A DNA stretch of 64,000 nt from Sabellastarte sp. h YS-2021 (lineage: Eukaryota > Annelida > Polychaeta > Sabellida > Sabellidae). The notes under the pieces are model-generated. The model saw only the letters and a list, made by a program, of their open reading frames with translations. It searched no databases and had not been told where the DNA came from. How positions within the stretch are numbered: the stretch's first letter is position 1; the number at the start of each line of letters is the position of its first letter. Of this stretch, positions 4,719 through 63,137 are shown one piece after another. The position numbers were made by a program, and so were the translations under genes. Location of the stretch: NCBI GenBank assembly GCA_964017235.1, contig OZ024940.1, forward strand, positions 23,813,615 through 23,877,614, in the 5' to 3' direction.

Positions 4719-7700
4719 CTAACGGATACAGTTACTCTGTAGACAGCCCTTCAATCTCACACATTTGACTGCCATCTTGTTCTTCCATTTGTCTTTCGTT
4801 AAGAATTTGATCTCAATCGTTTCTAGACTCGTTTGTCCTGCAAATCAAATTGTACAAGTACATTGATAGGTAAGGCTCTGTGACACCCATTACTTGGCAT
4901 ATATTTTGGACCATTTCAGGCCAGCTGGTTCTACCAGTCACCCAGCGGGCAGTACTTGACAGAGCCACCTTCACCATTCTTCAATTTACAAGGTCAGTCA
5001 ACCATTGTGATCATAGTTCTGTATTCCATGCTCCAAAGATTTGGAATGACCAATGCAATTCATCCTCTGTTGCCTCCTTCAGGAAAAAGCTCAAAACTTG
5101 TTTGCAAAAGCCTCTCCACCTAATGCCCAATTTACATTACAGGCAATATCTATATATACTATATGTGGCGCAATATCTCCATGTACTAAAGGACTCAAAG
5201 CGCCATATGACCCATTCGACTATACAAGTAAAGCCTAGGCTCTCAAGTTACTGACATCCCCCTAACCGAAAAACAGAGGCCCAAGGATGACCGTTTATCA
5301 ACATCCTTTAGCTTCTTTAGCCTGCCACTGGGGATAAGACCCAACGACATTTTAAGTGATCCTCCGACCCACTATTCATCTGCCTGTACTTGGGTTTGAA
5401 CCCGCATCCTCTGTGTTCCAAGGCGAGTGTGTTACCCACTAGGCCACCACTGCAGATATTAAAGTGTAGTATTCAAGAAGAGGTTTAAAATATGTCAGCA
5501 ATTATATCACACAGGATATTTCATAACCCGAGTGGCACATATTTAAAAATTTTGCTTACAATGGCTGACAAATCACTGCACTCCTATTCCAAAGGACCAC
5601 ACTACACTTTTCTTATCCTGCACACTGGCTGAATAATAAGTAAAGTAAGTAAATATATACCGAAAAATTGCAAAAAAAAAAAAAAAATTGTGAAACCTAT
5701 CCATGGTACTGGTCAATTGTGATTTGTGAATACAATAACTTTAATTATTCACTTGATATATCGCAGCCACTTCTGTATGAATTTAAATGAAAGAATAACA
5801 AAAAAAAAAAAAAAAGAATTGTAAATACACCATTGCATATGAAACATCCTGGTATTGATTTTAAAAAAAACATTATTATTAAAAAGTGGCACTATTTTCC
5901 CAAAATAATGAGAGCCAGTTCATACACTAAAATAGGCACCGATCCACCTGGGGGACTTACTTGGTAAAAAACGACATACAGTGGATAAACAAAGAAAATA
6001 GGCAACTTACCGCAGATAGTGGGGTCAAGATCGACAAGTGGTCCAGGAGGGGGAACTGGCAGTACGAAGGTGACAAACTGGCACCCAGAAATCGCATGGA
6101 TCTGTAGAGAAAGACAAAGAAAAATGTTGATAAAATTAGAGTCCCCAGATGTGTCAGTTCATGAAGATATGCTTTTTTTTGGTTTGTGTTTGTGAGTTTA
6201 TCTGACTCCTAAGCTCAATTTTAATACATTCAAATGAAGGTATTTATGTGTCAATAAACTGAATGGATAAATTCATGTCATTTATCATGCAGACTTTTGG
6301 CTCAGCCAGGTCTTTACTGACTTAGCTTTTGCAAAAACCATTTGAGACCAAAGCCCACCTGATACAAAGCAAAAACATAGATTCAAGCCACTGGCTTCTA
6401 CTAATTGTTATCGTGAAATAAAACCCTGATATTCTACAAACCTAAATGTTAACCCCAACCTACCGTTTGGAAGCGGTATAAAGTTGGCTTATTCAAACGG
6501 CAGATGCCAAACTTGGCCTGAATGGACGTCACTTTGCACACTTTAACCTCAAGTTTAATCGCTCTGAAAACTCCACCAGCCACCACTCTTCTGATCAACA
6601 GGGATTGACCCGGCTTGATCTTGATATTTGTTTTGGGTTTCTTCAGGTTACATGTTTTCCCGTAAAATGTTGCTGGTGGTAGTCTAATCAGCTAAAAAAC
6701 ACAAAAACATAACAAAAAGTCTATTTTTGACACAGATTTCTTATTGCCGCCCAAAGGGAAGGGGGCGGGTACTGTAAGGAGGTACAATATGGTAAGACTA
6801 CTCTTGCTCCGCTAAAAGGAGGGGGTTAAAGATTCGGGCAAAGGTAACCGGTTGTGTTGGTGGCTCGATCCTTCTCAAAGATAGTCCAGATCTGGATCAC
6901 AAATCCAGGACTTTTTTTGTATGTATTTTTTTTTCTCAGTACTACCAATGTACAAAATAAGCTCCTACCCATCTATTTGAGACTGGTTGCTTTTCTCACA
7001 GAGCTGTATTTGGAGTTACAGGTCTCGATATCCGGTAACTACAAACCTCTTCTCATAATTTTTAAGCACATTAACTTCTAGAGATCGCTTTTTTTTTTTT
7101 TTGTCTCTGGACTTTCATGAAATGTGTCACAGCGTGACAAGTGTCTTTTACAGATGTTAAGTGGCAATGAGTTATGTTAGTACTTAAATGGGTGATTGCT
7201 TCAGTGCACTACTTGTGTCTCTGATAGTAGATCAAAACCCCTTTCAGCCTTATTCTTTAATCAGGACGTAAAGGCCACCACATATGACATTCTTACTATT
7301 ATGGAAAATAATGGTTATCATTTTTTCTTCAGCACTTTGTCAATTTTAAAACTCAATATATTGACAGTGTCTGTCCCTGCAGACAGTAGGCTGGCTAGGA
7401 TTCAATTCCTAAAAAGTGGAGGTTTTTAATAATGGCTTAATTGTACAGTTTTGTGGTCAAATTTCACTATGTCAGCTTATGAAATACTGGAGGGATTTTT
7501 TTGAATTTAATTTTTCTTTTTTTGACCAATAAAAGCTGCCACATGCCAACAATCTTTAAGGAATACAATTCGATAGAATGAGAGAAAAAGAGCACTTTAT
7601 CTCACATTCATGCTAGGAGCAAAAATAGGTGATACTTATTCACTTTATGTTCACAGAACCCCTGCTTAACCAACCAGAGTGCCCAAGGTCTGTTGTTAGA

Positions 7701-10700
7701 CTGTCAAACTGTCCTCGTTTGATCTTTTAGGAGGGGCCCAAGGTCAAATATGACTACATCATAAGATGGCCATCCCACGGCGATTTCCTTGAGGTTGGTT
7801 ACACATCCCAAACCCAAGACCAATAACAACCAAGTTCATGTACATGATTTTCTATAGTTTAGATTCAGAGTCCAAACCTCTTGGATAAATAATATATGAG
7901 ACATTAGCAATTGTAAGTTGGGTTTGCACTAGCTACTTTGTGGCACTCTATGGATGATCTTGAATGTAAAGTCTGAAGGTCAAATGTCTACAAGCTAATA
8001 CAGGCATGCATCTGTTTGACACATTACCCACAAATGAGATTCTGAGACAGTCTTCTACAACTGAGAACAATCACAGTTTTTTATGACCAAAAAGATGAAT
8101 ATTTGCAGAGCTGTGGCAGGCATCTTGTTTTTTTTAAAGTGAGGCCAAAAGCATTCCCAAACAAGGTTACGTGGTAAGTAACATTTCTTGTAAATTTCAG
8201 AAGAAAAGATCATTTTTTTTCCCATGGAGAGGAAACATAAAGACCTCTCTATACACTGTGGCATAATATTGAGTCAAATGCTTTTTCAAAGTCTATCACT
8301 ATCAGTAGTCAAACAACATTACTCTATTCTGTTTTATTCATAAATCATAAATAAGTCTTGTGCCATCCCTCACTTGTCTGCCAAATACAATGCCATACAG
8401 AGATTATTATATTATCAAAGTAAGTGTTTTTTCAGTCTATTTACTATAGCACCTAACATAAATTTATACACAACACTTAAGAGGGACACTGGCCACCAGT
8501 TCTTGAGCCATCTTTTATTCTTTTCACCTTTGGCAGGTAAGTTAAATACATTGACATAACATTGTACAAAGATATTTGTTTGCTATGTTAATTTCAAAAT
8601 ATCTTAATCTGAACCCCAAAAACTTTCAAGAGTTTAGAAACAAAACCAGTAGTTTTATTTTGTCTCATAGTTTAGGGAACTAGACTTAATTCATTGGCTG
8701 TTGCATGGTTACCTACTTCTGTATCAATCAGGTTTTTATAGAGGGATATTCCGAAAGACATCTTGCGGTTCAATATCCCATAAAACTGTAATCTTTTTCT
8801 TTGATAATACTTTTAACAGGATGCAGCATCTGGTTTTGTTCAGTACAGAAGGATCCATTTCATCAGTTATAACCTGCCTTGTTCACTTATTGTATTGTAT
8901 ATTTATACTCAGTGCAATATATCCATGTACTATAGGACTCCCAAGTGTTATTTCACCCTTCCTGACTGCACAAGTACAGCCCAAGCATTCCCCTAGCTGA
9001 AAGACAGAGGCTCAAGGATGACCATTTATCAATGTCCTTGAGGTTCTTTAGCCTGCCACTGAGGATAGGACCCATTGACAGAGGAACGATATGACCAATT
9101 GTCCCATGAGAAGTGTGTCAACTGATCTTTTCAGCTTTCAAAGTGACCCTGAGTTGATGTTACGAGTGATCTTTACAATTTTCTGGGATGTTCAAGTTTT
9201 CCCCACCTTTTTACAACAGAATCAGTCCATGAAGCCCCCAACCCCTTCTGAGTTTAAAATCAGTTAGGTCTTACAATTGATTATGAATGTGCATCTGGGA
9301 TTTTGGCAGTAAATGAAAACATACTTACAGTCATGTGTCCAAAGACACCATCAGGGACTGGTAAGTTGGCTGCTGGTTCTCCTGCTGGGCACTCATTACA
9401 CGCTGCCTGTACTCCTACAAAGCAGATCCAATTTTATCTGTATTCACTGTTAACGCTCCAATCTGCATTGTTATTATCATTTTATTATTCACCATACCAT
9501 AAACTGTATCTGACCTATATAGGGGGGTAGATACAGCACAGGATATATATTTTTCTATACACAACAGCACCCCCTTACCATGGATACTTAAGTGTAAACA
9601 GTTGCCGATTTTTCATTAATATAGCAGTTTATTCAACAGTGAGAACCTCAAAGTAGCTATTGCTCAGCTATGTGATGAGCTACAGGTCTGCATTTTCACT
9701 ATGATTCAACAATGATATAAAAAATAAAAAAAAAAAATCTGAGCTTACCAGGCCAAGGACTCTCCGTATAGAAGTTGTAAATTGTGAATGTTTTGGTAAA
9801 CAACATTTGGCGAATGAAAATAAATTCAGAGATGTTCATTTCCCCTGCTGAATTTTTATCTAAGTAATAGCCGAGGTAAAGCCAGTGGAGGGTGTCAATA
9901 GGTGCTCGCCTTGCGAAACAGAATTTTTAAGATACACATAATACCCCATTCCCACTACAGGTGGTATCACCCATGGAAACCCACGTTTGGTGAAACGTCC
10001 CTGTCCTTGGATCACTGCGAGACGTCTGTTTGCGACTTTGCAAGTCAGTGGCGTACCGTCCTATGGAAGTTTTAAGCTGTTTAAAATTTCCGCCTCTGAT
10101 TTCGATACCAGAGCATTCGCAGAGGATTAAGCATGTATCATTTTCTATGGTAACCAAAGGTGTGGTCCACAGTGTACATAAAGTTGTGATTCGGTCATCT
10201 TTCGATGTAATGTGGCGACATAAGGTGAGTTAAGGTATTGGTCATTTCGCCACATGTTCTTTCGAAGGCTACTGAAGGTGAGTTAAGGTGACCAACATTT
10301 GTAGTATTGTCATCCTACTGTTATTAACGCCTAAAAAACAGTATCCCATCAGTGGCCATACACCTGTAGTGTGACCAAATGGGCCGAGATGTACCGCCTT
10401 TAGTGACAGGCCTGGGGCATAATGTACAACAGCATCGCAAAGATACATGGACAGCGCTTCGCCTGGTTTCTGTTGCATTAAAATCCAATGACTCGGTATA
10501 AATATCATAAAGCACAATAAAAATGCCATAAAACCATACTGAGTTGGTAAAAATGTCATATTCATAGCTTAAATAGTTACATCTTTTCTAATACATGTTG
10601 TATCCTTTATTTTTCAAATAGTGAACAAATTTATCTTATTTACCACATTTATTTATTACCTGTTTTGTATATATGTTTTTTTCTTTTTCATACAAAGTGC

Positions 10701-10911
10701 TCAGGTTCTGGGGCATTTAACAATGGTCGGAACAAACACTGAAATGTAAGAATGTTTGGTGCAAAGTTAGCCCTTATTTCCTAAGACCTTGCAATCTAAA
10801 AAAAAAACTTTCCCTGGTGAAATACTGGTAACTATACAAACGATCAACCTTACCTAGTTTGCCAAACATCAGAACTGTAACCACGACGAGTGGAAGAAAT
10901 GCCATCTTCAT
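4719..10911 (-). CDS. Gene A: small secreted ten-cysteine protein, five exons
   Basis: Five exons joined at GT-AG sites: 10854-10911, 9329-9414, 6464-6691, 6011-6101 and 4719-4837. They give 582 nt and a 193-residue protein ending at TAG. The start ATG (10911) opens a hydrophobic signal peptide (MKMAFLPLVVVTVLMFGKL); a second in-frame ATG lies two codons on. Cysteines are at 25, 28, 62, 100, 112, 131, 154, 180, 186 and 191. The core exon (residues 49-124) is Lys-rich with a KPKT...KPGQ stretch and a VKVCKVTS strand; exon 4 has a PVPPPGP turn; the end reads KCVRLKGCLQSNCIR. Intron phases are 1, 0, 0, 1. A predicted secreted, disulfide-rich protein; I do not recognise the family and assign no function. 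Closest in the window is gene B (shared signal peptide, exon 4 and 3' UTR). Intron 4 holds a LINE tail and a SINE, intron 2 a SINE, intron 1 a dispersed repeat. A likely 5' UTR intron acceptor lies just upstream of the ATG. Confidence 0.9.
4885..5148 (+). mobile_element. LINE C-terminal fragment, second family
   Basis: Plus-strand frame contains SVNHCDHSSVFHAPKIWND then SVASFRKKLKTCLQK, the typical end of LINE reverse transcriptases. It lies in intron 4 of gene A and is joined directly to a SINE tail. Confidence 0.6.
5150..5456 (-). mobile_element. SINE family S3
   Basis: Minus-strand copy with GTGGTGGCCTAGTGGGTAAC head, GGGTTCAAACCC-like B box and tail ending in GCGCCACATATAG. It lies in intron 4 of gene A. 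Confidence 0.78.
8888..9086 (-). mobile_element. SINE S3, head lost
   Basis: Tail and body (ACAGAGGCTCAAGGATGACC, TTCTTTAGCCTGCCACTG) in intron 2 of gene A. Confidence 0.7.
9985..10400. repeat. Dispersed repeat R4
   Basis: TTTCCGCCTCTGATTTCGAT, TATGGTAACCAAAGGTGTG and CACCTGTAGTGTGA shared with 41545-41950, in intron 1 of gene A. Confidence 0.6.
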
Positions 10912-11370
10912 TATGGAACTAAATCAATAAAAAGTAAATGAAATTATAGTTTTAATAATTTTTAAAGCTTACAACTTTATTCTTCAACATAATTATGAGC
11001 ACTAAGGCCATTTAATTTGGAATGAAAATCAACAAAGTTGACACAGTCTTGGGAATATTCTCAAAAGTCTCAAGAAAATATCATATAGGGAAGTAAAGAC
11101 TAAAATCTTTACTCAGTCTACGATCTTATTTGCTTGTTGACAATTTATTCACACAACATTTTTTTTCTGTGTGTAGTATCTTTTATCGCTATGTTTACAT
11201 TTATACAAATGTACACTGCATATATTCAAAATAAACAAATTTTTTTTTGGGGGGGGGGAATTCATGCACTTGAAAAGCTTTTAGACCTTTGGATGAGACC
11301 ATGATTCAGTTGCGTTAGCTTTTTTGAAATGGACACGAATCCAACACTTAGCAGACAAAAAAGCCCATGC

Positions 11371-12355
11371 CCTAACAATACCATAGAGGGAAGTCAGTAT
11401 CTGGCACCAACTAAAATACTAATAAGAATGGTTCCCCAAGGTAATACCTAGCTTATGCCCTAAAATATCAGAGGGAAGTCAGTGTCTGGCACCCACCAAA
11501 ATACTAATAAGAATGGTTCCCCAAGGTAATACCTAGCTTATGCCCTAAAATATCAGAGGGAAGTCAGTGTCTGGCACCCACCAAAATACTAATAAGAATG
11601 GTTCCCCAAGGTAATACCTAGCTTATGCCCTAAAATATCAGAGGGAAGTCAGTGTCTGGCACCCACCAAAATACTAATAAGAATGGTTCCCCAAGGTAAT
11701 ACCTAGCTTATGCCCTAAAATATCAGAGGGAAGTCAGTGTCTGGCACCCACCAAAATACTAATAAGAATGGTTCCCCAAGGTAATACCTAGCTTATGCCC
11801 TAAAATATCAGAGGGAAGTCAGTGTCTGGCACCCACCAAAATACTAATAAGAATGGTTCCCCAAGGTAATACCTAGCTTATGCCCTAAAATATCAGAGGG
11901 AAGTCAGTGTCTGGCACCCACCAAAATACTAATAAGAATGGTTCCCCAAGGTAATACCTAGCTTATGCCCTAAAATATCAGAGGGAAGTCAGTGTCTGGC
12001 ACCCACCAAAATACTAATAAGAATGGTTCCCCAAGGTAATAACCAGCTTATGCCCTAAATAATCATAGAAGGAAGTCAGTGTCTGGCACCCACCAAAATA
12101 CTAATAAGAATGGTTCCCCAAGGTAATACCTAGCTTATGCCCTAAATTATCATAGAGGGAAGTCAGTGTCTGGCACCCACCAAAATACTAATAAGAACGG
12201 TTCTCAAAGGTAATACCTAGCCTATGCCCTGAAAAGATTATAAAGAGAAGCCAGTACCTGGCACCCACCAAACACTAATAAGAACAGTTCTCAAAGGTTA
12301 TACTTGGCTCATTACCATAAAAAGATCATACAGGGAAGTCAGTACCTGGAAGCGG
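11371..12355. repeat. 85-bp satellite, about 11.5 units
   Basis: The unit includes GGAAGTCAGTGTCTGGCACC and CAAAATACTAATAAGAATGG. Seven central units (11461 to about 12055, exact 85-bp step) are near identical; outer units on both sides diverge. There are no unique spacers, so this is not a CRISPR. It starts about 460 bp upstream of the gene A start codon. Confidence 0.92.
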
Positions 12356-14687: not shown

Positions 14688-17600
14688 TCACTGAGAGATA
14701 CAGTCGTCCTGTAGACAGCCTTTCAATCTCACACATTTGACCTTCACTTTCTTCTCCCATTTCTCCTTCGTCTGGAATCGGAGCTCAATGCCCTCCAGAC
14801 TTTCTTGACCTAGAAAGCAAATTAAACAAGCATTTTTATCACACTTATGTCATACCACCAAATACCCACATGTCACTCCTGGGGCCGATTTCATGAACGG
14901 ACTTAAGCCTGGTTTTGGGCTTAAGTTTAAGACTTTGGTTTTAAATTCTGTCAAAAATGTGCTAAGTCAGCGGGCTTAGACTTAGTGGATTTCACAAAGG
15001 GGCTAAGTCCATGGATTTGCTAAGTCAGTGGACTTATATTTAATTCTGGGGCCGATTTCACAAAGGGACTTAAGTCCAGATTTAGGCTTAAATCTAAGAC
15101 TTTGGTCTTAAATTTTGTCAAAAAACTGCTAAGTCTGTGGTCTTAGACTTAGCGGATTTCACAAAGCAGCTAAGTCCATGAAATTGCTAAGTCAGTGGAC
15201 TTAACTTTTAAGTCTGGGAGGTAGTGGGCTTAAATTATGTAAAGAGGACTTAAATATGGCCGCCATAAACTTTTCTCTACTTCAAAATTTGAAATGGCTG
15301 TAAATAAATTATAATTATGCAGAACACCTCACTAAAGTAGTGTTTGGGAAGTTTATATGTGCTAACAAGGTTTTCAATTTCAAAACAGCACTTATCCTTA
15401 GACAAAATACATTAAAAGAAGAATATGTGGCATCAATACTATATTTTGAATAGATACAAAAGGTCACATGACACAGAAAACCACTGTGGTTATATGATAA
15501 GCCTGGACTTAGCTAAGTCACCTTTGTGAAATCCATTTTTCTAGCTAAGACCAAAGTCTTAGATTTAAGTCCAAGACTTAGCCAAAAAAGGGACTTAGTT
15601 TAAGTCCTTTAGTGAAATCGGCCCCTGGTTAGCAGTGGGCTTAAATTTTGCAAAGAGGACTTAAATATGGCCGCCATAAACTTTTCTCCACTTCAAAATT
15701 TGAAATGGCTGTAAATAAAGTATAATTACACAGAACACCTCACTAAAGTAATCTTTGGGAAGTTTATATGTGGCAACAAGGTTTTCCATTTCAAAACAGC
15801 CCTTATCCTTAGATAAAATACATCAAATGAAGGATATATGGCACCAATATTATATTTTGAATAGATACAAAAGGTCACATGCCACAGAAAACCACTGTGG
15901 TTATTTGATAAACTTGGACTCAGCTAAGTCACCTTTGTGAAATCCGTTTTAAGTCCCAGACCTAGTTTAGACCAAAGTCTCAGATTTAAGTCCCTGACTT
16001 AGCCAATAAAGGGACTTAGTTTAAGTCCTTTAGTGAAATCGGCCCCTGCTAGAGAAGAGTCTTCAATGGTTGCCTATCAAACATCGATCTGTTTTCGAGA
16101 CAGCCCTGTTCATGTAAAAATTCCTACAATGTTCAAAATTTCTGCCCATAATACTGGGAATGAGAGTCAAGCCCATTCACCGTCATTTGTCAGTACTACC
16201 CACAAGCCTTTATTTGTGTGTCTCCGTCTGTCCATTTCAGTGACATTCTGCAGATAAATGTTTTATACGGTAACTGAAAGCGATGTCCACGGCTTACATA
16301 AGGTTGCAATTTGGTCGTGTTTCGGTACCACGTGTTGTTGACGGCTAGCAAAGGTGAGCTGAGGTTAATGCAGGTGACCAATGGTTACAAACCATGTTGC
16401 TTCAGTGGCCATTCACCTGTAGTGTGGAAGGTTTTAAAAATACTGAAAGATATGGGACGGTCTGTTCTGCCATTGAGTAAAGCTTCTAACAGTAGGACGT
16501 ACCGCATGTAGTCTGAATGGGGCATTACTATTGTGGATGTGAGATGATGCCGATGTCAGACCAATGGACAGACAGATGATGACTATTTCTATATCCTAAA
16601 ACATTTGTTGACGGGGGATTAAAAAAACAAAACAAAACATAATCATAGTAACTGAGGCCAGTGCATGTAAAAACATACACCAAGTCATATGTCTGGCTCT
16701 TTAGAACAGACATGGCACACAGAAGACAAATAAATAAATAAATAAAATAGAAAACTTGCCACAAGCATTGGGGTCGACCTTGACAAGCGGCCCAGGAGGT
16801 GGAAGTGGCAGTACAAAGGCTACAAACTGACATCCGGAAATCTCCTTGTGGATCTGAAGAAAAGATAAAGAAAAATAGAGGGTTAAAAAACCTTGGAGTC
16901 TTCTGTCTTGTCCACTGATTGTCAATGATGTGGGTTTAATAGCACATTCTACCAGTCTTTTTTTGTCGCAAGCACCCCCCCCCCCCCCCCCCACATCCCC
17001 CACCCCACCCCCAATTTGGGAAAATGTTACAGACCACCCCACCGATTCCCCTAGACGCAATGTTGATACAAATGTTATAGGACTAAGTTTAATGGCGGCC
17101 CTCTGTCACTGGGTCCTATCCCAAATTATAGGTTAAAGAACCTCATTGATAAATGGTCATCCTTGAGCCTCTGTCTTTCAGTTAGGGGAATGTCAGTTAC
17201 TTATGAGTTGCGGCTGCACCTGTGCAGTCGGATGGGTCAGATAGCACTTTGAGTCCTGTAGTACATGGAGATATTGAGCTCACTATAAATACTTTTTGAA
17301 TTGATGCAAAATATCACAAAACTGGACCTATTAGATCTATATGGTCTACGTATTATGCACATTACGATGTCATGACCAACTTTGTTTAGTTTAATAAACA
17401 AGAACCCCTGCTTGCAGGTACAGCTAAATGGGCAACAACACTGAGATTTGGGAAAACCTTAGGAACAACTTCAGTTGTAAGATGGAAACAGAACCCAGGA
17501 GATATTGTCAGATGAAAGATACACCGGCAATGATTTTGTACAAGTTGTTTTCATAGTTTGAAGTCCTAGAACAAAATATAAAGGTCTGGAGAGATATAAG

Positions 17601-20600
17601 GTCTTTTTAGCATGATGACCCCACATGACCTTGAAGCAGGGGTCAATGGTCAATTCTGAGACTTGCAAAAGATTTGCAGACCAAAATTTCCTTTTACTTG
17701 TTTTCCCATTCCAAAACCCTAGGACCTATGATAAGTGAGATATTTTTTTTATGACCTCCCCACCCTCTGTTTGCCATTAAAGATGTGATATGGCAGCCAT
17801 TTTGTTTTCAAAACAAGGTCAAAATTACTCTCAGTCAAGGTTTTCTAGCCATTTTGTGCAAATATGATACAGCTACCTATAATATTTTAAGTTTTACAAT
17901 AAATCATTGACTTTTGAATAATTGCCTATGGCAGTCATGTTGTTTTTTTTAAAAATGAGGACACATTTTTTACAAAAAAGTTTTCATAGTCATAGAAATT
18001 CTCTGCAGATTTGGTGACGATATCTTCATGCATGAATGAGATACAAAGGTTGATGTGAAAATGTGACAAACACACACATATCCTGAAAGTAGTGAAAATT
18101 CGTATATGGGTATAGGCTGTGGAAGACCCAGAAGCTTTACATCCTCTGCTGCTCTGACGGCACAGGGGATGACTATAACCCCAGCCTTTACAAAACCTAT
18201 AAACAAGATTTACGTTTGACAATAAAGCTGAATTAACTGTGTAAAAGTGATTTCATGTCCAATGATAAAAAGATCTGAATTCGGCACGATAATATCGGGA
18301 ATACACAACAACTGGAAGTGTCGAATTGTAACCCTAAGTTTTAAGCAAAAAGTTCACTGCTCGGCTGAGACCAAAAAAATCTAGATTTCAGCCATTGTGG
18401 CTCGGCCTGAGACCGGGCCAAGTTTGAGGTCCTTTGTGAAATCGGTATTCAAACAAACCAAATGCTCGTCCTATCTTACCGTTTTGAAGCGATGTATGGT
18501 TTCCTTCAGCTGTATGGCAAAGTTATTCCAACGGCAGATACTAAATTTGGCCTGAACTGACAGCACTTTGCACACTTTAATTTCAAGCTTAATTGCTCGG
18601 AAAACCTCGTCATTCTCCACCCTTCTGATCCACAGGTATTGCCCCGGCATGACTTTAATCTTTGTTTTCGGTTTCTTTTTGTTGCAGGTTTGTCCGTAAA
18701 ATGTTGCAGGCGGCAGTCGAATTAACTAAAAATAAAATGAAATAAACAAAAAAAAGTAGCATACCGTATTTAATCATTTTAAACGTCTCCTCCATGTTAA
18801 ATGCCCTCCCCCTGCTACAAGTGATTATATAGCCAAGTGACGGGTATATTTGGTCAGTATTTATTGGGCATATTTTTTCACATCAGTGAGTCAAGATAAG
18901 GAAATTTAGAAAAAACAAGTGGAAATTCCATTCACAGAAGTTGCTGCAAATTATTATTAATTATGATTCATATAGCGCTCATAAAATTACAAATTAAAGT
19001 TGTGCTTTCAGATGTTTTGTAACTTTCATGACAAATTGTTCCACAGTACTGAATGCCACATCCCCAAAGGACTTGTATCTGGTTCTTGGCACAGACAATA
19101 GTTTTTTTGAGTCAGATCATAAGGAACGAGAGGGAAAATACTCCTTCAAAAGACTAGAGACGTGAGTGAGTGAATGTCCATCTAGAGCCTAGAATTTGAT
19201 AAGTAATATCCGGAATTTAAAACTGGTAGCCAGTGGAGGGATTTAAGTACAGGCTTTATAAATAATTACCGTATTTTTTTCAAAATATGGCCCGGGCATT
19301 AATTACTTTCAAATTGCATCAGACCAGGTGTTAACTTGAACCAGGCGTTCTTTTTAAATAAAAAAACAGTGTTATAAATTGTAAACAGTGTGCTTGGTAC
19401 CAGGCCTTAATTTGAGCCAGGCGTTTATTTGAACCTGGGTGCTATTTTTCAAATTTACGGTAGTTGGTCATATTTCCTGACTTCACAATGTTTCTTAAGA
19501 CCTACCGAAAAAAATGGAGGATTCAAGTTTATATTAATGTCTTCAGGCTTACGGGTTGTTTCCTATATTTTCAAAGTGAGTGATACTGTTGTCTCCCTCT
19601 TGTAATGCTCAGGAAGAATCTAATTTTCACCCATTGCCCCCAGGCACCTAATGAATATGCTTATAATTGTAAACCATGTATGTCCCCTCCCCTCGCTTTG
19701 TGAACAGGTATTTCATCTGCTGGCCTATTAAAACTTTTTTTCTCAAATTTGATCTGTTCCTGATCTGGGGCCGATTTCACTAAAGGACTTAAACTAAGTC
19801 CTTTTATGGGCTAAGTCTTGGACTTAAACCTAAGACTTTGGTCTTAGCGAGGTCTGGGACTTAAATGGATTTGGCTTAGCTAAGTTCATGCTTATCAAAT
19901 AACCACAGTGGTTTTCTGTGTCATGTGACATTTTATATCCTTCATTTAATGCATTTTTCTACGGGATAAGTTCTGTTTTGACATAGAAAAAATTGTCACA
20001 TCATATAAACTTCCCAAAGACTACTTTAGTAAGGTGTTTTGTATTATTATACTTTATTTACAGCCATTTCAAATTTTGAAGTGGAGAAAAGTTTATGGCG
20101 GCCATATTTAAGTCCTCTTTACACAATTTAAGCCCAATACCTCCCAGACTTAAAAGTTAAATCCACTGACTTAGCAATTTCGGCAACTTAGCTGCTTTAT
20201 GAAATCTGCTAAGTCTAAGACCACAGACCTAACAGGCTTTTCACAAAATTTAAGACCAAAGTCTTAAATTTAAGTCTAAATATGGACTTAAGTCCCTTTC
20301 TGAAATCGGCCCCTGATCTTAATCCATGTTTAAATTAGTGATACATCCCCTGACTTCTATAAAATGTGGCAGGTCACACAATTAACTATGCATGTGAAAT
20401 TGGGTTATATCGGTAACAACAAAAAATACTTACAGTAATTTGTCCAGAGACCCCTTCAGGGACAGGTAAATTTGCTGCTGTTTCACCTGCAGGGCACTGA
20501 GAACAAGCTGCTTCTACACCTGTCAATTAGATCGGATTTTCTTCTGTGTTTAACTGTATTTGTGACGGCTACAGTCTTGTGGTGGTGTCATTGGCAATTA

Positions 20601-21995
20601 AAAAAATAACTTTTCTTCTTTTTAAGTGCAAGCTTCTAGATGTCATTTTTTTTCCCCTTTTTAGGCGGGTTTGCTTGTAACCAACCCGTCTATTAGATTG
20701 ATGTGTCTGACATCCGTCTGTCTGTCCGTCCGTCCACATTTTTCGTTCCCGGACTCTAACTCGAAAACGGTTTGACCAATCGAATTCAACCTTGACAGGG
20801 AGATAGATCACCATCATAGCTACCATCCTTTCGAAATTGGTGTAATTCCGTCCTTTCGTTTGGCTGTTTATAGCATAGATACAATGTAACCTAGATTACA
20901 AGTTTTACGTATCTTAGCACGTCTAACACATTCAACTTAACTGGGTGACCTAACATTTCTTTCCTTGTTTCTAAATGTAATTACAGCAGTTGCTAACCTT
21001 ATTGCTGCCTGCGCAACCCGCCTTTTGGGGCATCTTTGACCCTCTTGTTTATATTTCACCTCCACCAAGGAGGTACTGTATAAGTGCTTATTTTCACGTG
21101 AAATTAATTTTTACTATATTCGTACTGCTCTCATGACCGTTTGTCTGTCTGTTTGTTAAAAAGAAAAAATATCAGAACATCTTGAATATCTTGGTCCAGC
21201 TTTAAGATCCTAATAGTATTAAATTTTGAGAGCAATCTGGATCACCGTCTGGATACAAAAGTAATCCGGATTTTCTCATTTACTTATAATTACGTGTCCT
21301 GGCTGAGGAATATCCTCTCTGAGTACTCTGTTCTTTATTTTTGGCTGTGGACTTGCAGGAGTTGTGCATTACTCTAGTGAGCTACTCGTCTTTTGGATGT
21401 GCTTTTGCAGCTTGTAATGCACGACTAGACCGAAACAATTTTTTTTCGCACTTGTTTGAAATAATGGCAGGAAATTGTCGACAGCAAAACCAAGTTTTAA
21501 AGCTACTTCCTAAATTTAGATGTACACATCATTTTACACAACTAATTTTCTTAAGTTAAAGAGAACTTGAAGAGCACATATGTCTGCCTGGACCAACACC
21601 TCCAATACTGCTTATGATGAAAAAAATTCTTTAGAAAAATTCCTCGATCCAGATGCTGAAACCTTCAAAATCCTTCTGCAAGTTTTTCGAATATTCTTCA
21701 GGCCAACAACTGAATACGCCTATTACATAACCCACTTGACTGAGGTAAATATCATAAAAGTATCATGAACTACAATGTATGTATGAATGTTTTATAAATG
21801 TCATTTTAATGTAATTGTATTTTATATAAGAAAAAAATCCTGGATTCTGGTCAGAATAAATGTTCAATGTGTGTGATGTCTTTGAAATAATTTCTGTTTG
21901 AAAACAAAAACTATTTCTCCAATATTACAAAGCATCGACCTACCTAGTTTGCCAAGGAAGAGAACAGAAAATGCAGCAAGTGTAAGGAATGCCAT
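14688..21995 (-). CDS. Gene B: small secreted ten-cysteine protein, five exons, one GC-AG intron
   Basis: Exons 21944-21995, 20434-20519, 18480-18725, 16760-16853 and 14688-14809 give 600 nt and a 199-residue protein ending at TGA. Signal peptide MAFLTLAAFSVLFLGKL, then an ACSQCPAGE motif, a core exon of 82 residues (47-128), an exon 4 with PLPPPGP, and a last exon with KCVRLKGCLQDDC. Cysteines are at 23, 26, 60, 98, 110, 136, 159, 185, 191 and 196, matching gene A one for one. The core is six residues longer than in A near its end. The donor of the intron after exon 4 reads GCAAGT instead of GTAAGT; the other donors are GT. Intron 4 contains a nested MITE, intron 2 two more MITEs, intron 3 a C-run and a SINE, and intron 1 a piece rich in CTGTCTGTCCGTCCGTCC. 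The function is unknown; the protein is predicted to be secreted and disulfide-bonded. Confidence 0.9.
14882..16045. mobile_element. Palindromic MITE M1 (outer copy, split)
   Basis: Left half 14882-15048 and right half 15628-16045, interrupted by a second copy of the same element. It begins GGGCCGATTTCA and ends TGAAATCGGCCC, with CTG on each side. It lies in intron 4 of gene B. The ends and triplet duplication fit PIF/Harbinger elements with CWG targets. It codes for nothing. Confidence 0.82.
15049..15624. mobile_element. Palindromic MITE M1 (inner copy)
   Basis: GGGCCGATTTCACAAAGGGA to TTTAGTGAAATCGGCCC, 576 bp, with CTG at 15046-15048 and 15625-15627. It sits in the middle of an older M1 copy. 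Confidence 0.87.
16255..16435. repeat. Dispersed repeat R4, partial
   Basis: ACGGTAACTGAAAGCGATGT, GGCTAGCAAAGGTGAGCTGA and TTCACCTGTAGTGTG, in intron 4 of gene B. Confidence 0.5.
17090..17286 (+). mobile_element. SINE S3, head lost
   Basis: CCTCTGTCACTGGGTCCTAT through GTACATGGAGATATTGAGC, in intron 3 of gene B. Confidence 0.7.
19269..19460. mobile_element. TA-flanked MITE M4
   Basis: CCGTATTTTTTTCAAAATAT to CAAATTTACGG, TA at both sides. It lies in intron 2 of gene B. Confidence 0.8.
19768..20312. mobile_element. Palindromic MITE M1
   Basis: 545 bp in inverted orientation relative to 15049-15624; CTG at 19765-19767 and 20313-20315. It lies in intron 2 of gene B, shortly before exon 2. 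Confidence 0.87.
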
Positions 21996-31561: not shown

Positions 31562-31683
31562 AGTGAGCTATAAGTCTTCTAGAAATCGTTAGTACAAAAA
31601 TAAAAGCAATTAACGTAAAGTTCTCACATAAAACTTGAAAATATATAATCTCAGAAAAAACCGTGTCACAAGTACATGCGCCA

Positions 31684-39900: not shown

Positions 39901-40842
39901 AAATGATATCACTACTTTTTCAAAATTTAGTTGTGGTTTTCCACTTCCTTTCCCTGATAAAGATGCGTGTACCAAATGATCGATTTTTTTGTACATCTCT
40001 GTCCCCTATGACAACAGTTAAAGGAAATGATATCTTTTAAATATGAATAAAATCGTTATATTTTAGATAATTTCAAATAAAAAACAACTTAGCAAAACTA
40101 AAATATAGATATTTTTACGCATATTGTATGTTTCAAAATTCAATAACACTTTTTATTAGACTTTAATTTGAAAATTTGACATCAGTTTTCTTAAGCGATT
40201 GAACTTCCGTACAACGACAACAGAAAGATACAGAAATCAGGGCCCTGTGTCTCTTTCTAGAGTTACAAGTCAAGATGTCCTGTAACTAAAGAAAAACTCT
40301 TCATACATTTTTTTTTACTGCTGAAACCTGGCAAAATTGAAAAATTTTGTTGTCATTTAAATTTTTATTAGATAAATACTTACCATTTCCTGACCATTGC
40401 TATATGTTAGTGCCATCCAACTCACTGGCCAACGTTGAGAAACGTTTTAAGCTACCTTAAGAGGCCAGTGAGTGAGTGTGAACTAGCATGTCCCCCTAGT
40501 GGTCATGTGACCACGCCAGTAAACAATCTTCATGATTTTTGTTGGTCATCCTTGAGTGTGGATGTGTTACTTTTTACATTCTTGCTAAACATTAGACCTT
40601 CTTTTCTTCAGCACCTACCACCTGGGCAGTTTTGGACCTCAATATTGATTTAACCTCCAGTAAAATGCAGACTGGCAACTTTTGCTACTATAACAGACCT
40701 GTACATATTTTTTTGCTGGTCCTGTGAACAAAGTCTTCCAGTAAATTACGTATACTAGTATTAATATAATATAAAAAAGTACTAACTCACCTATTTGGTT
40801 TACCAACAAAACCAGCAACAAAACAGCTGAAATCAACGCCAT
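33939..40842 (-). CDS. Gene C: small secreted ten-cysteine protein, five exons
   Basis: Exons 40791-40842, 39130-39206, 38009-38251, 35798-35885 and 33939-34060 give 582 nt and a 193-residue protein ending at TGA. Signal peptide MALISAVLLLVLLVNQI, then DACNNCPNGE. Core exon residues 44-124 carry KKKPKTKI, QPGQRLRI and VKVCKVTN; exon 4 is IAGCETVTFTLPVPNT; the end is KCVKFKGCLQNECIQI. Cysteines: 20, 23, 57, 95, 107, 132, 153, 179, 185, 190. All introns are GT-AG with phases 1, 0, 0, 1. It lacks the proline-rich PPPGP turn of A and B and pairs with D. A conserved acceptor (TTTGATTCTTTAG before 40936) suggests a 5' UTR exon reaching 40936. Intron 4 carries a MITE starting 12 nt after the splice donor, intron 3 a LINE, intron 2 a 62-bp tandem repeat, and intron 1 a 21-bp tandem repeat. 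The family is not recognised. Confidence 0.9.
34116..34432 (+). mobile_element. SINE S3, full
   Basis: Best copy: A box TGGCCTAGCAGGTAAC, B box GGTTCAAACCC at 34167-34177, then a body and a tail GCGCTGAGTATAAATAC with AAT repeats. It lies in intron 4 of gene C. Confidence 0.82.
34783..34990 (-). mobile_element. SINE S2, full
   Basis: Minus-strand copy with the TGCGTTCAACAGCCAGGGTC tail and GATTCGAACCGGCG B box region, in intron 4 of gene C. Confidence 0.78.
35205..35782. mobile_element. Palindromic MITE M1 next to a splice donor
   Basis: 578 bp, CTG at 35202-35204 and 35783-35785. Its end lies about 14 nt from the end of exon 4 of gene C. Confidence 0.87.
36090..37495 (-). mobile_element. 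LINE fragment (CR1/L2/jockey-like RT), frameshifted
   Basis: Minus-strand reading gives RT pieces in order: HSTETAILYIKNEV-like and LLDLSGAFDTIDH (motif A) near 37260-37340, GPFAVLIVHH and FHFYTDD (catalytic) near 37080-37190, VKNLGVWFDSDFSLSKR at about 36900, SAARIVSDTRRYTS near 36630, and LKKLHWLPVEQRTVFK then LPEEIRASPSLASFRKQLK to the 3' end. Stops and frame changes break it. The 3' tail is ATAGCGCTTAATCTCCCC in plus reading, followed by TTCTAATT-type repeats. It lies in intron 3 of gene C and is a pseudogenic, 5'-truncated copy. Confidence 0.85.
38519..39025. repeat. 61-64-bp tandem repeat, about 8 units
   Basis: The unit contains TATTGGTCGAAATCTACATA and AAGAAAGTGGAATTCTGATT, with moderate divergence between units, in intron 2 of gene C. 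Confidence 0.88.
39222..39450. repeat. 21-bp tandem repeat next to exon 2 of gene C
   Basis: Unit CTCAAAATACTATCTTGTTAC, about 11 times, beginning 16 bp inside intron 1. The length is a multiple of three, so it reads open as an LPQNTI repeat; I do not take it as coding. Confidence 0.85.
40376..40575. mobile_element. Element M9, one end only
   Basis: AAATACTTACCATTTCCTGA end and inner GGCCAGTGAGTGAGTGTG, in intron 1 of gene C. Confidence 0.6.
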
Positions 40843-48958: not shown

Positions 48959-51900
48959 TCATATTATTACCCGGATACACTTGTCCTGTAGACAGCCTTT
49001 CATTTTCACGCATTTGACGACGACTTTGTCTGCCCATGCCGCCGTGGTTTCAAAGCTCAATGCAATGCTGGTGATGCTCTGATGACCTAAACAAACACAA
49101 AGAAAATAATTAACAAAAGCACTCGGTGAGGGCCGACCTCCGCCTAGACACATGATAACAAGTAAACTGGGAAAATCCGCATCTTTGATATAGAAACACA
49201 AAAGAAAAGTTCAACTAGAGCTTGTCTGCTGAGGCAGAATATTGCAGGAAAAATAAATAATACAAAAACGATCAAAGAAACACATGTATTTTTAAATTTT
49301 ATCACAACAAAAGACACAGAACTTATTCTTTCTGGCACAAGGCGGTTGAAATGGGGTTGTTTCCTTCACTTCCTGTCAGGATCAAAATTGAAGTGCTGGA
49401 AACTCAAATTGTTTTTTTTTTTTTATTATTATTATGATTGTGAACCATATTTTATTGTTAATTACATGGTACACATACCACAAACCGAAGCGCCCAGAAA
49501 ACTATCCGAGTCGGAAAGCGGCAGTGTGAATTTTAGATTCTTACATCCTGGAATCACCTCGTCAATCTGAAAAATAAAAAAATAAAAAATAGACCTCTGA
49601 TGCAGTCTGATATCTCATGCCAATTTAACATTAATTTAACTGATTTTCAATATTTAATTACCGGTAATTATAATTTATTACATTGAAGGATAGTGGCGTA
49701 ACATAATTCATAGTTGCCAACGAATGCATGTGATGGATAGAAAAGTAGAGTAAGAAATCTAAAATTCGCCACATATCTGAAATTCGCCACATGTAAAAAT
49801 ACTAATAAAATAAATGAATTGTGGTGAGATTTGTTGACTGTATAGTAAATTAAGGCTTTTTGAACTGAAAAATACCAATTTTTGGACAAAAACATCGTTT
49901 TCTTCATAAAATTAACTAAGCTTTTAGAGGTGGCGAATTTTAGATTCCTGGCGAATTTTAGATTTCTTACTCTACCATTTTATTGTTACTGTTATATTGT
50001 TATTCCTATTTTGCAAGCCCTTTGTTATGTAATAGCAATTTGTAAGGGACTGGTAATTGGATTAGATTTTAGAATGTATTCTGAAAAAATATAACTGTTA
50101 AATATATTGTTATGCTTATACTGCTTAATATATTTAGAAAAGAAACTACATCAAGGTCACAAGGCCAAAGGGCTCAAACTGCTGTGTATCAAATGATTTT
50201 CGAGATGAACAACATTTTCGATTCCACCACAATTCAAGATGGCAGATAAAATTCAGAAAATTCAAATTTTTTAGAGGGGATAAATTTGCCAAAAATCATT
50301 GTATCTGCCTTGACGGAAGTTAAAATGTGTACATGATATATAAAATTGTACATAAATATAAACTGTAATGTGATTTTTTTAAAGATTTTTTTAAAAACCA
50401 AAAATGACTAATATGTTGACAGAATACAACAAAAACAAAATTATAAAAAAATACTGTGAATTACTTTTTCTAGTTGGATATCTTGGTAAGCTTGTGGTTA
50501 AAAGAGTGAATATGTGAGGAAACCGGTTATGATAAGGTTCCAAGTGGAATCTAACCAGATCAGTGCCTACCGGTTGGTAAATAGGTCACCGGTTTACCAT
50601 CTTACATACTAGCAGACGTATGCTCACTTGATCTTCAACCAGAATGGATTTCGGTGGGGCTCCTGCAACAATCCTTCTGCATACAACCAGCACAATTTTT
50701 ACAGACGTCACTTTGCACACTTTCACATGCAGCTTGATGACTCGGAACACCTGAAACTGCACGGCTCTCTCGATCTTCAGGCTCTGCCCCGGCAGAATCG
50801 ATATCTTCGTCTTGGGTTTCTTCTTGTTGCAGGTGGCGAAAATGATTTCTCCTTGGGGTTGCTTTATAAGCTAGAACAGACCAAAAGAATCGTGTTCGTG
50901 AAGATGAAGACTATCCAGGCTATTCAGCAGTTTTCTCCCCTATCAGATGGGCTCTTTCTGACAAATGGACTACAGTTAGGGCTTAGTAAATAACTCCTTT
51001 ATGAAGTGGTTTTGCTGGTATGACAGCATTGAGACCATTTTGCTGAGATAACATGTTACACAACACGGGAGTATGAACCTAAAATACTAAAAATATGGAA
51101 TATATGTGGCACCTCTTGTTTTATACCAAACTACCTTATTGATTTTACGAGTCCTTCTCCTCACTAGGTTGGATCATGTTCCAAAAACAAAGGGCTATTT
51201 AATAAAGCTACATACAAAACCGAAACTCAGGTTAAAAAAGGTGTTTTGTTATTTAATGCCGCGGTCAGAAGTAGGTGACAGTCGTGAGCCCGTTGCGCAC
51301 GACTCAAGAGTTGGTAACGACCACTAGAAAGCTTTGACCGTTCTTAACTTATTCACGGCCTATGTGTTTATATGTGGATGTAAACAAACACAAATGACAA
51401 AGAGAAAGCAATAAAAGAAATCACAACATTTCGCTATCCATCATGCAAAATGTGTGCTTCATTTGTTGTACGTTTCCTGAGGTTATTTATCAAAATCCAG
51501 AGTACTGAAATACATTATTTTACATGCTTGTTTTATAACAAAAGCACGTGTATTCTGCATCTTTGTTGTCATTAGAGGTGAAGGTCACAAATTGGAAAGT
51601 TTCTGGAGGTACCCAACTCACCAGTGATAAATACGACCCGTGACATTGTTCTTGGCAAATTTACAGGCCGTGAACTCGTGTTTTTACGATCGGGAAGAAC
51701 ACAGCATAAGACTGCATTGATCAAAATCTTGTCAATGATTCCTTGGATGGAAATTTGGGTCACAATTACCATTCAACTCACTTCACGTTACCTTGAACAG
51801 ACTTGGACTAAATGGTGGTGTTGGTAAAAATCCCGTGATTTCTCCCTTTGGGCATTTCTTACACGCACCTGTCACCACATCTGAAATGATGACAAGGAGG

Positions 51901-54900: not shown

Positions 54901-55671
54901 TCTCCTCAAATTACAAGGATCATACATTTGAAGCCTTCATATACAAATATCAACAAACACCACAGCTTACTGGGATATAACATATCACCTTTGACAGCAC
55001 TGACAAACTCTTCCTTCCAGACTAAAAGGGCATAAGTTCTCAAGGAATTTTGTTACCTGATGCAGTTTTTTTTACTGTTTTAAAGAACACAAACTTTATT
55101 TAAATTTTCAACAGCAGATTCCCACATAAGTCCCTCTGTACACGGCAGTTGTTAATTATCTGAGATAGGTGTATATTACAATGCACTTGCCATGCAACAT
55201 TTGTTTGTTTATTATAGCATCACAATTGACAGAGGAATGAAGGTTCTTAAATGCTCTTTGACCCCTCGACTCTGGGCTTTAACCTAATATAACAAGAACA
55301 CTTAAGAGAGTGTATACCTCTGATAAGGCCCAATGTCTGCACTATTGCTTATGAGTACACTGAATCATTTAAAAAAAATACATCTTGCATCCTGACTACG
55401 TTTGCGGAACACAATTCAAATTAAATTGCTTTTGTGTCAGACTGAAACCTAGCTGCTGTGAAAACTGTGACGTAAATTTGTGCTAACATATGAAACCATC
55501 AAACAGACTGACTCAAACTATCATAATTCCATGATTCTTGCTATTAACTTACATTAATAACAAGAATTCAACAACAATCCCATAAACCTCAGAGCCAGAC
55601 GGTAAACTTGTCAACTCACCTATTTTATTAACCAACAGAAGCAACAGTACGACAGTTGAAATCAACGCCAT
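48959..55671 (-). CDS. Gene D: small secreted ten-cysteine protein, five exons
   Basis: Exons 55620-55671, 51792-51880, 50628-50870, 49479-49566 and 48959-49086 give 600 nt and a 199-residue protein ending at TGA. Signal peptide MALISTVVLLLLLVNKI, nearly the same as in C, then a CKKCPKGE motif. Core exon residues 48-128 carry KKKPKTKI, LPGQSLKI and VKVCKVTS; exon 4 is PGCKNLKFTLPLSDS; the end is KCVKMKGCLQDKCIRVII. Cysteines: 24, 27, 61, 99, 111, 136, 157, 183, 189, 194. All introns are GT-AG. Exon 2 has two in-frame acceptors 12 nt apart, which would include or skip four residues before the first Cys pair. A 5' UTR exon probably begins at 55732, after TTTGATTCTTCAG as in C. Intron 3 contains a TA-flanked MITE; the 3.7-kb intron 1 contains two Harbinger-type MITEs and a SINE. 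Plus-strand reading frames over its exons are shadows. Confidence 0.9.
49748..49972. mobile_element. TA-flanked MITE M7
   Basis: GAGTAAGAAATCTAAAATTC to GATTTCTTACTC with TA on both sides, in intron 3 of gene D. The short motif TGGCGAATTTTAGAT is doubled near each end. Confidence 0.82.
52430..52500. repeat. Degenerate 21-bp repeat in intron 1 of gene D
   Basis: CTCGTTACCTCAAATATACT and TCTTGTTACATCAAGATACT: the same unit as at gene C, three eroded copies. Confidence 0.6.
52556..53242. mobile_element. Palindromic MITE M3
   Basis: GGGCCGGATTCACGAAAGG to CCTTTCGTGAATCCGGCCC, arms rich in TCTCAGCTGAGATT, CTG at 52553-52555 and 53243-53245. It lies in intron 1 of gene D. Confidence 0.85.
53246..53665. 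mobile_element. Palindromic MITE M2
   Basis: GGGTGGTATTCACTAACATT to TAGTGAATACCGCCC. The left triplet is CTG and the right CAA, so no clean duplication. It abuts MITE M3 in intron 1 of gene D. Confidence 0.78.
53707..53926. repeat. Two-unit repeat
   Basis: AAGTATCAACTTCCTA...TTTCTGAGATATATAGCCC occurs at about 53720 and again at about 53870, with AGATCAAAGGTCAACATAAG between. Confidence 0.6.
54003..54126. repeat. Degenerate 21-bp repeat, second block in intron 1 of gene D
   Basis: AAGATACTATCTAACTACC and CTTGTTACCTCAAGATACC variants of the same unit, interrupted from the first block by MITEs and other DNA. Confidence 0.55.
54563..54672 (+). mobile_element. SINE S2-like, same variant, partial
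   Basis: Shares GGTCACCT, TGGGTTTGACTCCCACA and GACAAATGCTG-type segments with the copy at 58645-58792; it lies in intron 1 of gene D. Confidence 0.5.
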
Positions 55672-60933: not shown

Positions 60934-60991
60934 TTATGAACACACGCATGTAGCTTATTACTTTTTGTTGGGCGGTGTAGTTTTTTCTCCC

Positions 60992-63137
60992 TCACACTTG
61001 AATACACTGGTTCTGGAGACAAGCATCCATCTTAACGCATCTCACTACAATTTTCTCTTTCCACGCCTTGTTTGTTTGAAATTTCAGCCGGATTCTCGCC
61101 AAGTTGAACTGACCTACAAAAGGACAATACACAAGTAATATTCATCCTTGACCTGCCCGCCTGCTTGAGCTTGTAGGGCGTTTATCATTTTGCCAAAGCA
61201 TACCTTAATTATTTCTGTGTTAAACAGGGGTTTTTATAAGAAAGTGTGATACAGTATATTAACAGCACTTACCCCTTGTTGCATGGAGGTTGATAAAACA
61301 CAGGTAAGTTTGTTTGATATATATGCATGAGATTCATGCATGCTGGTTAGTAAAAATGTTAACTAAGGCTTAAGTTTATATCCATAAATATAGAAGAGTT
61401 GTTTTGTCTTGTCTGTGAGACAAAAAAGTGTGTTTAAGTCTTTAACTGTTAATGAAAGTAAAGACTAGACAACTTTCAGATTAGACTGGAAATAGGTACA
61501 ACAAACCTATAAACCTTACCAGTCATGGGTCTCATATATTCATAAAACATAAATATGTTTCAAATTTTACCATCAGAAAAGGGGTATGATATACACAATG
61601 CCACCACAAAACTTACCACAGGCATTGGGGTCCAGGAAGGAGGGATTGTTTTTGTCGGGGGTGGGTAACTCGAAACAGACTCTGTTGCATTTATTAGGCA
61701 AGTCGTCGAGCTGAAAAAAAAAAAGAGAAAAAAAGTCACATTTTACCCCGTTTGCTACGGTCTCCCCACCTTGAAAGTCAAATTTCGAGGTCACTTGGGT
61801 TCAAAGATTAGAATTCAACCTCGATTATCTGACAGTGTTGAGATAGTTACCTTGTGTTTGGATAATAGAAGGTTAATGAAACAGACGAGGCAATTCATTA
61901 AGTTTATTTACTTGGGGTTTTATGTTGCTTTCAACACTGTACAGATCATATCACGACGGGTAGTTTTGAGGGCAGAGGAAACTAGTACATACAGTTCGTC
62001 AGGGTTCTGTACTGTAAACTGCTGACCAACAGCAAGCAACTACCAACTTTCCTACATAGGATTCAGGGCAGCATTGGCGACTTCCCGACGTACACATTTT
62101 TGATACCGACCCATCCCTAGTCAGTACTAATTTTATCTTCATAAACATTTCTTGGCCACTAAAAGTTGCCCCATTTCTCAATTTGCAGACTTAAACATCA
62201 TTATTGCAGGTAGAAGCAAAGCAGTCATCTCTCATGCATCTGGGGCCATATTCACGAAAGGTCTTAGCCAAGTCTTACACTTAAGTTGGCTGTATTTTTA
62301 TACAAAAGTTAAGCCAAACATTTGGCTAAGACCTTTCGTGAATACGGACCCCTGGATATTAAAGTAATGGTCATATCGCCCCGGGCATATTTCAGAGATC
62401 AGATATGGTAGATCTAGGCTACAGTAATACCGAGGAAATTCTATTTGGGGCCATGGCAGGGTCAATAAAACTGGTATCTCCGTATTGAGAACAATTCACT
62501 TAAATACTGTGACGACACTTGACAATCAGTATTTCGAATGCCAGTATATAATATTGTGAGAAAATTTAAAATACCAGAAATAAACATCAAATCGGAAGAA
62601 ATGATAAAGTTTTACATCATATTTTTGTATATTTTAGTACTTTTATAGTGATTTTTTGGTTTCGGAAGCACTGCTGCAGTGTTTTGTTTTCAGGCATTTT
62701 ACTTCCTGTAATGGGCCTATTTGATTGGGTATAATAGAACACAAATTTTTTTCAGTATTCCGGAATCGCTACGGTTTCACACTGGCGGGATACCGAAATG
62801 GAAAATCCGCTACCCACCCTGCCCTAATTGGGACCTAATTTGGCAAGAAATTATTCTCAGTGGCAATTCTAGGTCACACCAGAGCACTTACATTCTGCGT
62901 GCTGGTGAAGAAATCGGGTATAAAAGTGGCGGTCGGAGTCCAGCGGCAGATGGCAAACCAGGCCTGCACGGAGGTGGCTCTGCATACGTTCACACAGAGT
63001 TTGAGGGCGCGGAACATGTTGGTTTGTGGCACGGGTCTGATCTCCAGGAACTGGCCAGGCTTCACGTTAATCCTCGTCTTCCCGACTCCTTTCTTACACG
63101 TCTCCCTGAACTCCTTATTAGGATACTTCAACGTAAG
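60992..63137 (-). CDS. Gene E (5' part outside window): secreted-type cysteine-rich paralog with two extra cysteines
   Basis: Three exons are visible: core exon 62892-63137 (82 codons), exon 4 61617-61710 and last exon 60992-61113, ending at TGA. All junctions are GT-AG with the family phases. The core reads KEFRETCKKG, VKPGQFLEI, CVNVCRATSVQAW and FAICRW; exon 4 is PNKCNRVCFELPTP; the end is RCVKMDACLQNQC. All eight cysteines expected in these exons are present, plus one in the core (KLCVNVC) and one in exon 4 (CNRVC) that no other copy has. The signal and Cys-x-x-Cys exons should lie to the right of the window edge. The function is unknown. Confidence 0.86.
61898..62050 (-). mobile_element. 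SINE S1, head lost
   Basis: Tail and body of S1 in intron 3 of gene E. Confidence 0.7.
62243..62351. mobile_element. Short palindromic MITE M5
   Basis: 109 bp, GGGCCATATTCACGAAAGG to CCTTTCGTGAATACGGACCC, CTG on both sides. It lies in intron 3 of gene E. Confidence 0.8.

Follow-up and report, generated by a model that had tools for sequence, protein, structure and literature searches.

Which protein family do the five related genes of this Sabellastarte locus encode, are the genes still in working order, and what might their products do? The locus lies within C21:23813615-23877614, a stretch of 64,000 nucleotides that is part of contig C21 and is referred to here as the window; the whole genome searched comprises 1.79 Gb. 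A preliminary description, based on the letters of the window, had proposed a tandem family of minus-strand genes for small secreted proteins with ten cysteines. We rebuilt the five genes, named A to E, exon by exon, by tblastn matches between core exons followed by reading of the minus strand around each match (Table 1). The likeness between the core exons of different copies exceeds chance because they match mutually at E values of 5e-33 to 1e-11. All the exons named are bounded by AG acceptors and GT donors, with the sole exception of the GC donor of exon 4 in copy B, and the intron phases are 1-0-0-1 in A, B, C and D as well as in the visible part of E. The five-gene arrangement, the exon positions and the phases of the preliminary description were thereby confirmed, as were the product lengths of 193 or 199 residues for A-D (A, 193, or 191 counting from the second ATG; B, 199; C, 193; D, 199, from a signal exon at 55671). 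The exon lengths, described as shared, proved to be similar but not identical across copies (exon 2, 77-89 nucleotides; exon 3, 228-246; exon 4, 88-94; exon 5, 119-128). Each of the five copies encodes a signal peptide. Exon 2 of E lies approximately 320 bases past the end of the window (about window position 64320), and a fitting signal exon (MGGHPLIVLFISFLGFV) was located approximately 1.1 kb upstream of it, at about window position 65459. An open frame at 18795, considered as the signal exon of B, was rejected as intron read-through; the true exon 1 of B is at 21995.

The reading frames are open throughout in A-D and in exons 2-5 of E, with all sites intact. A poly(A) signal follows the stop codon by 108-121 nucleotides in all five window genes, while the chance that such a signal starts 105-124 nucleotides from a random site on the same strand is 0.044 (4.4%). 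Selection was estimated as the ratio of nonsynonymous to synonymous divergence (dN/dS), using the Nei-Gojobori method on the mature part of the proteins, both among window copies and against matching copies of a second array on contig C8, which are denoted by primes and described below (the broken exon 4 of A' and B' was omitted, and E/E' was compared over exons 3-5 only). Saturation affected 7 of the 15 pairs of six mature sequences, among them 5 of the 10 window pairs, and dN/dS was 0.12-0.39 in the 12 of 19 comparisons that were not saturated. Among window pairs, the ratio was 0.23 (A/B), 0.24 (A/C), 0.25 (A/D), 0.31 (B/D) and 0.35 (C/D), with A/C, A/D and B/D near saturation at silent sites. 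Matching copies of the two arrays gave 0.26 (A), 0.12 (B), 0.22-0.27 (C) and 0.13 (E), and the cross pairs gave 0.22 (A/C') and 0.39 (D/C', the highest value). The differences between the arrays fell at third codon positions in 10 of 15 (A), 5 of 7 (B), 13 of 22 (C) and 17 of 23 (E) cases. Values by exon rest on stretches of 11-17 codons, are noisy and were not counted as evidence of selection: dN versus dS was 0.63/0.67 (A/C) and 0.60/0.58 (B/D) in the signal exon, 0.78/0.35 (C/D) and 0.83/0.81 (A/C) in the first 12 residues of exon 3, and 1.47/1.51 in the exon 3 tail of B/D, and the ratio slightly exceeded 1 in exons 1 and 4 of C/C', with very few changes. Gene-wide, the coding parts are under purifying selection, and the suggestion that the family is diversifying under selection is unsupported at this level; a few positively selected sites may nevertheless lie within the genes. 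Since the gene models and splice sites are intact, the poly(A) signals stand at a near-constant distance and dN/dS is below 0.4 wherever unsaturated, A-E are, judged from their sequences, working genes of one animal protein family. It is extremely unlikely that the array consists mostly of non-functional relics: four of the nine C8 copies are broken and B and C have a 5-kb retroelement between them, but the open frames and intact sites of A-E and the purifying selection argue against it.

The five copies are real, but the family is larger than the preliminary description had it, with eight copies on C21 (A-E plus F, G and H, downstream of them) and nine on C8. The C21 array occupies 23.768-23.878 Mb on the minus strand, its copy H being known from match coordinates and exon 5 only. 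The C8 array runs on the plus strand from 6,627,716 to 6,769,954 (6.628-6.770 Mb) in the order E', X, D', C', B', A', F', F'' and H'. At E values up to 10, at least 50 of 53 matches to query D and at least 38 of 41 matches to query E fell in the two arrays, all genome match counts being lower bounds. More distant members comprise at least two copies at C21:19.16-19.18 Mb (19.156-19.181 Mb; L050), one match with a stop at C8:98.65 Mb (98,648,265) and one last-exon match on C11. For the L050 gene, of which exons 3-5 but not exons 1 and 2 were found, the surrounding phases 0 and 1 are those of the family.

A-E and their C8 partners share their order, with X additional on C8. Identity over collinear blocks, counting introns and spacers, is mostly 87-97% around A-C (one 247-base block, 84%), 76-90% around D and 84-87% around E; H and H' are approximately 89-91% alike up to the end of locus L036, and F and G are approximately 74-88% alike to the nearest C8 copies, without one-to-one pairing. 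An additional intron divides the core exon of F, G, F', F'' and H'. The silent divergence of matching copies between the arrays is 0.05-0.17. As to the broken C8 copies, the donor of exon 4 and the last cysteine are gone from A', and B' carries an internal deletion within exon 4. In D', exon 3 is interrupted by an in-frame stop, exon 2 is partly duplicated and exon 4 could not be found; H' contains stops. The found exons of C', E' (exons 3-5), X, F' and F'' are free of stops, and exon 2 of E' was not found within the C8 stretch examined. A, B, C and E were paired with their C8 counterparts by means of a tree of 14 rows. H, D', H' and the L050 member do not figure in it, several rows are incomplete (C8_A and C8_B without exon 4, F without exon 5, C8_E without exon 2, G without the start of exon 3) and row C8_X includes, ahead of GCKN, three residues (INR) that have no support in its frame.

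One alternative considered was that the C8 array is a left-over alternate haplotype of the C21 array. The data tend to favour a block duplication over an unpurged haplotype, because a genome-wide search with the 1.4 kb upstream of E (a DNA search that skips common words) returned no further match. The 10-kb flank of E compared with the C8 stretches on the minus strand likewise yielded only repeat-like matches (rows of at least 150 bases, with 8.7 kb upstream of E' covered), and the haplotype explanation is somewhat the less favoured one.

Counted from the residue preceding the first cysteine, the mature proteins A-E have 170-178 residues, an isoelectric point (pI) of 9.4-9.9 and 26-29 Lys+Arg versus 9-16 Asp+Glu, and none contains the N-glycosylation motif N-x-S/T. 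Signal peptides and the cysteine framework bore out the proposed secreted, cysteine-conserved character. The count of ten cysteines held for A-D, where the first five stand at the same mature positions (2, 5, 39, 77 and 89), but E has twelve, the two additional ones being LC in exon 3 and VC in exon 4. As a family trait, five exons with phases 1-0-0-1 are found complete in A-D and, with exons 1-2 beyond the window, in E; ten cysteines are not universal, the L050 member having three in the three exons found. Most copies share the lysine-rich core TC-x-KKPKTKI-x-I-x-PGQ, and one tryptophan in the last exon is invariant among the aligned copies.

The extra cysteines of exons 3 and 4 are present or absent jointly in all 15 scorable copies, with no mixed case: eight copies have both (E, F, G, E', F', F'', H' and L050) and seven have neither (A, B, C, D, A', C' and X), while B', D' and H fall outside the count, one of the two exons being missing or the sequence not covered. 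Two state changes are needed on the 14-row tree. Because of this covariation, a disulfide is predicted to link strand FR-x-IKLC of exon 3 with strand VCF of exon 4. The L050 member is the telling case, since it keeps the pair, together with one other cysteine, while most of the others are lost. An internal repeat of exon 3 against exons 4+5, suggested by eye, was rejected, as none was detectable in a profile comparison. On a more far-reaching interpretation, which is possible but somewhat unlikely, the proteins would represent an undescribed domain whose disulfide framework is new and whose cross-strand bond, joining exon 3 to exon 4, is switchable, encoded by a lineage-specific array of humoral effectors that would have spread between chromosomes as a block and then lost copies.

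Database searches did not place the family. Pfam (Pfam-A 2025) gave no family at E values up to 10 for any of the five window members or of three further members, and NCBIfam gave none at the same threshold for the five window members. PHROGs yielded no meaningful match (a single PHROG, at E 0.4, for one member of the five). Searches of the PDB with the members returned just two weak matches to ribosomal L38 (E 0.26-0.27), judged to be chance, and exons 4+5 as a query had no match. Exon 3 as a query matched three designed proteins (E 1e-4, 0.003 and 0.06), whose scores summed weak repeated pieces, none significant singly, and ORC1 (E 0.67); these, too, were judged to be chance. With respect to a viral or prokaryotic origin, exon 3 as the sole query found no relative in IMG/VR contigs, prokaryote genomes or phage records, and an Rfam search of the window gave no match. 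Elsewhere in the genome, a search for the haemocyanin beta-sandwich had no match, nor did it have one in any control genome, and a mitochondrial contig of 15,345 bases carries a COX1 frame that stays open with TGA read as W; repeat types and cytochrome oxidase would suit a lophotrochozoan. No paper was tied to the family, either by sequence strings or by topic at the level of titles and abstracts. The statement that the proteins could not be placed in a known family thus stood up to the profile searches, and on sequence comparison the family is unplaced and undescribed. The same searches bear on the idea of a secreted signalling ligand or antagonist built on a disulfide scaffold (cytokine-like), which would suit the size, the secretion, the cysteine framework and the invariant tryptophan of the last exon; we regard it as decidedly improbable, as no Pfam model, those for cystine knots and cytokines included, matched at E up to 10, and so many near-redundant tandem copies would be unusual for a ligand.

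What, then, might the products do? Our preferred, though tentative, answer is that these are working tandem genes for a soluble, basic, disulfide-locked and beta-rich binding protein of body fluid or mucus, evolving by birth and death, with defence as the first-choice role. The signal peptide would direct secretion, conservation and covariation of the cysteines suggest that disulfides lock the fold, and the alternating hydrophobic pattern, the sole basis for this point, hints at a fold that is mostly beta-sheet. The protein would be dissolved in body fluid, mucus or a gland secretion and would act by binding, not catalysis; to judge from its charge, the lysine-rich core would contact an acidic ligand, for instance a sulphated glycan, a mucin or a microbial surface, and loop differences between copies may vary the binding. 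Copy number would change by birth and death, as the second array on C8 with four of its nine copies broken suggests. A humoral or mucosal defence role was put first by analogy, because tandem secreted cysteine-rich mollusc families include the I84 inhibitors, which are similarly clustered in the razor clam and have no positively selected sites in the table rows consulted (PMC9198434).

Several points weigh against this interpretation. The basic charge also fits matrix and egg-coat proteins, the 15 copies in the cysteine-pair count are non-independent, several being near-copies of one another, and AlphaFold models of exon 3 alone and exon 5 alone were unusable, with a mean predicted local distance difference test score (pLDDT) of 51 and 49, respectively. 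Defence families, moreover, often have dN/dS near or above 1, and the gene-wide values here are lower. The purifying selection and the secreted, basic, cysteine-rich nature of the proteins would also agree with a small, basic structural protein that can be cross-linked and is deposited in the extracellular matrix of shell, byssus, egg capsule or cuticle. This we consider unlikely: many matrix proteins carry low-complexity or repeat sequence, none of which was obvious here by eye, and the ordered cysteine spacing suggests a globular domain. A reproductive protein, of the egg coat, seminal fluid or albumen gland, would account for a tandem array with copy-number turnover, but positive selection was not seen gene-wide, and this origin appears improbable. 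The evidence does not separate matrix, egg-coat and defence roles.

Table 1. Exons of the five window genes (positions within the window)
Copy	Exon	Positions	Strand	Feature	Located by
A	1	10854..10911	-	start codon, signal peptide; phase 1 donor	
A	2	9329..9414	-	C-x2-C-P	
A	3	6464..6691	-	core: TC, VC, IC	tblastn and splice-site reading
A	4	6011..6101	-		tblastn and splice-site reading
A	5	4719..4837	-	stop; poly(A) signal 121 nucleotides past stop	
B	1	21944..21995	-		
B	2	20434..20519	-		
B	3	18480..18725	-		tblastn and splice-site reading
B	4	16760..16853	-	GC donor	
B	5	14688..14809	-	stop	
C	1	40791..40842	-		
C	2	39130..39206	-		
C	3	38009..38251	-		tblastn and splice-site reading
C	4	35798..35885	-		tblastn and splice-site reading
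C	5	33939..34060	-	stop	
D	1	55620..55671	-		
D	2	51792..51880	-		
D	3	50628..50870	-		tblastn and splice-site reading
D	4	49479..49566	-		tblastn and splice-site reading
D	5	48959..49086	-	stop	
E	3	62892..63137	-	extra Cys in KLCVNVC	tblastn and splice-site reading
E	4	61617..61710	-	extra Cys in NRVCF	tblastn and splice-site reading
E	5	60992..61113	-	stop; E exons 1 and 2 beyond window position 64000	

Further features were noted along the two arrays. The intron after exon 4 of B (window 16853-16760) is of the GC-AG type, and the C8 partner of B retains the GC donor beside its deletion. Upstream of the start of A, window 11300-12194 holds about ten tandem copies of an 85-base unit, of which the C8 array seems to have fewer. 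Short tandem repeats are also found in copy C, with a unit of approximately 62 bases in intron 2 (window 38517-39022) and of 21 bases in intron 1 (window 39210-39443). On C8, two consecutive signal exons lie ahead of C', at C8:6668624 and 6670476, approximately 1.85 kb apart (L056). The retroelement between B and C (window 26335-29733 and 29543-31567, minus strand) has a reverse transcriptase match, weaker RNase H and tyrosine-recombinase matches and an upstream open frame without a Pfam match; we take it to be of the DIRS type.

As a kind of system the locus is ordinary, such arrays being present in many animals. Its value lies in a protein family that went wholly undetected by the domain libraries used, in a pair of tandem arrays, one of them partly broken, that offers a clean set for annotation and for the study of birth and death in secreted gene families, and in a structure target with, possibly, a new disulfide fold. 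Among known proteins, those with an NTR domain, such as TIMP, are secreted and beta-rich and have a cysteine at or near the mature N-terminus. The family resembles them in its secretion, its N-terminal cysteine and its predicted beta-rich fold, but their motif is C-x-C rather than C-x2-C-P, and no Pfam match was obtained at E up to 10. Ependymins are glycoproteins, whereas the present proteins have no N-glycosylation motif and, again, no Pfam match up to that threshold. Ependymin-related proteins are likewise a secreted animal family found in several lineages (PMC6280359). The Mytilus CRP-I cysteine-rich peptides, a mussel effector family with gene presence/absence variation (PMC10138031), may be comparable.

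A close parallel is with the mollusc family I84 protease inhibitors (PMC9198434). The scSI genes of the razor clam are clustered within 100 kb on separate chromosomes, which was ascribed to tandem duplication; one copy is shortened by a stop, and the site-model rows consulted list no positively selected sites. Small secreted proteins, conserved cysteines, a shared exon structure, clustering and a truncated copy are common to both families. However, the I84 mature peptides have 69-89 residues and 12 cysteines in the array CX5-8CX4-5CX7-9CX4CTC...CXC, against 170-178 residues and 10 or 12 cysteines at 2, 5, 39, 77, 89 and beyond in the family described here, and they have a pI of 5-6 and three exons with two introns, against a pI of 9.4-9.9 and five exons with phases 1-0-0-1 (PMC9198434). 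The relation is one of analogy and not of membership, given the differences in length, cysteine array, pI and exon number. That the products are protease inhibitors, or toxins secreted by a salivary or skin gland, is accordingly very unlikely: comparable small secreted cysteine-rich tandem families do exist in animals, I84 among them, but the differences just listed and the absence of a Pfam match speak against it. The family is undescribed but of a familiar kind, and its members look like ordinary tandemly duplicated extracellular proteins.

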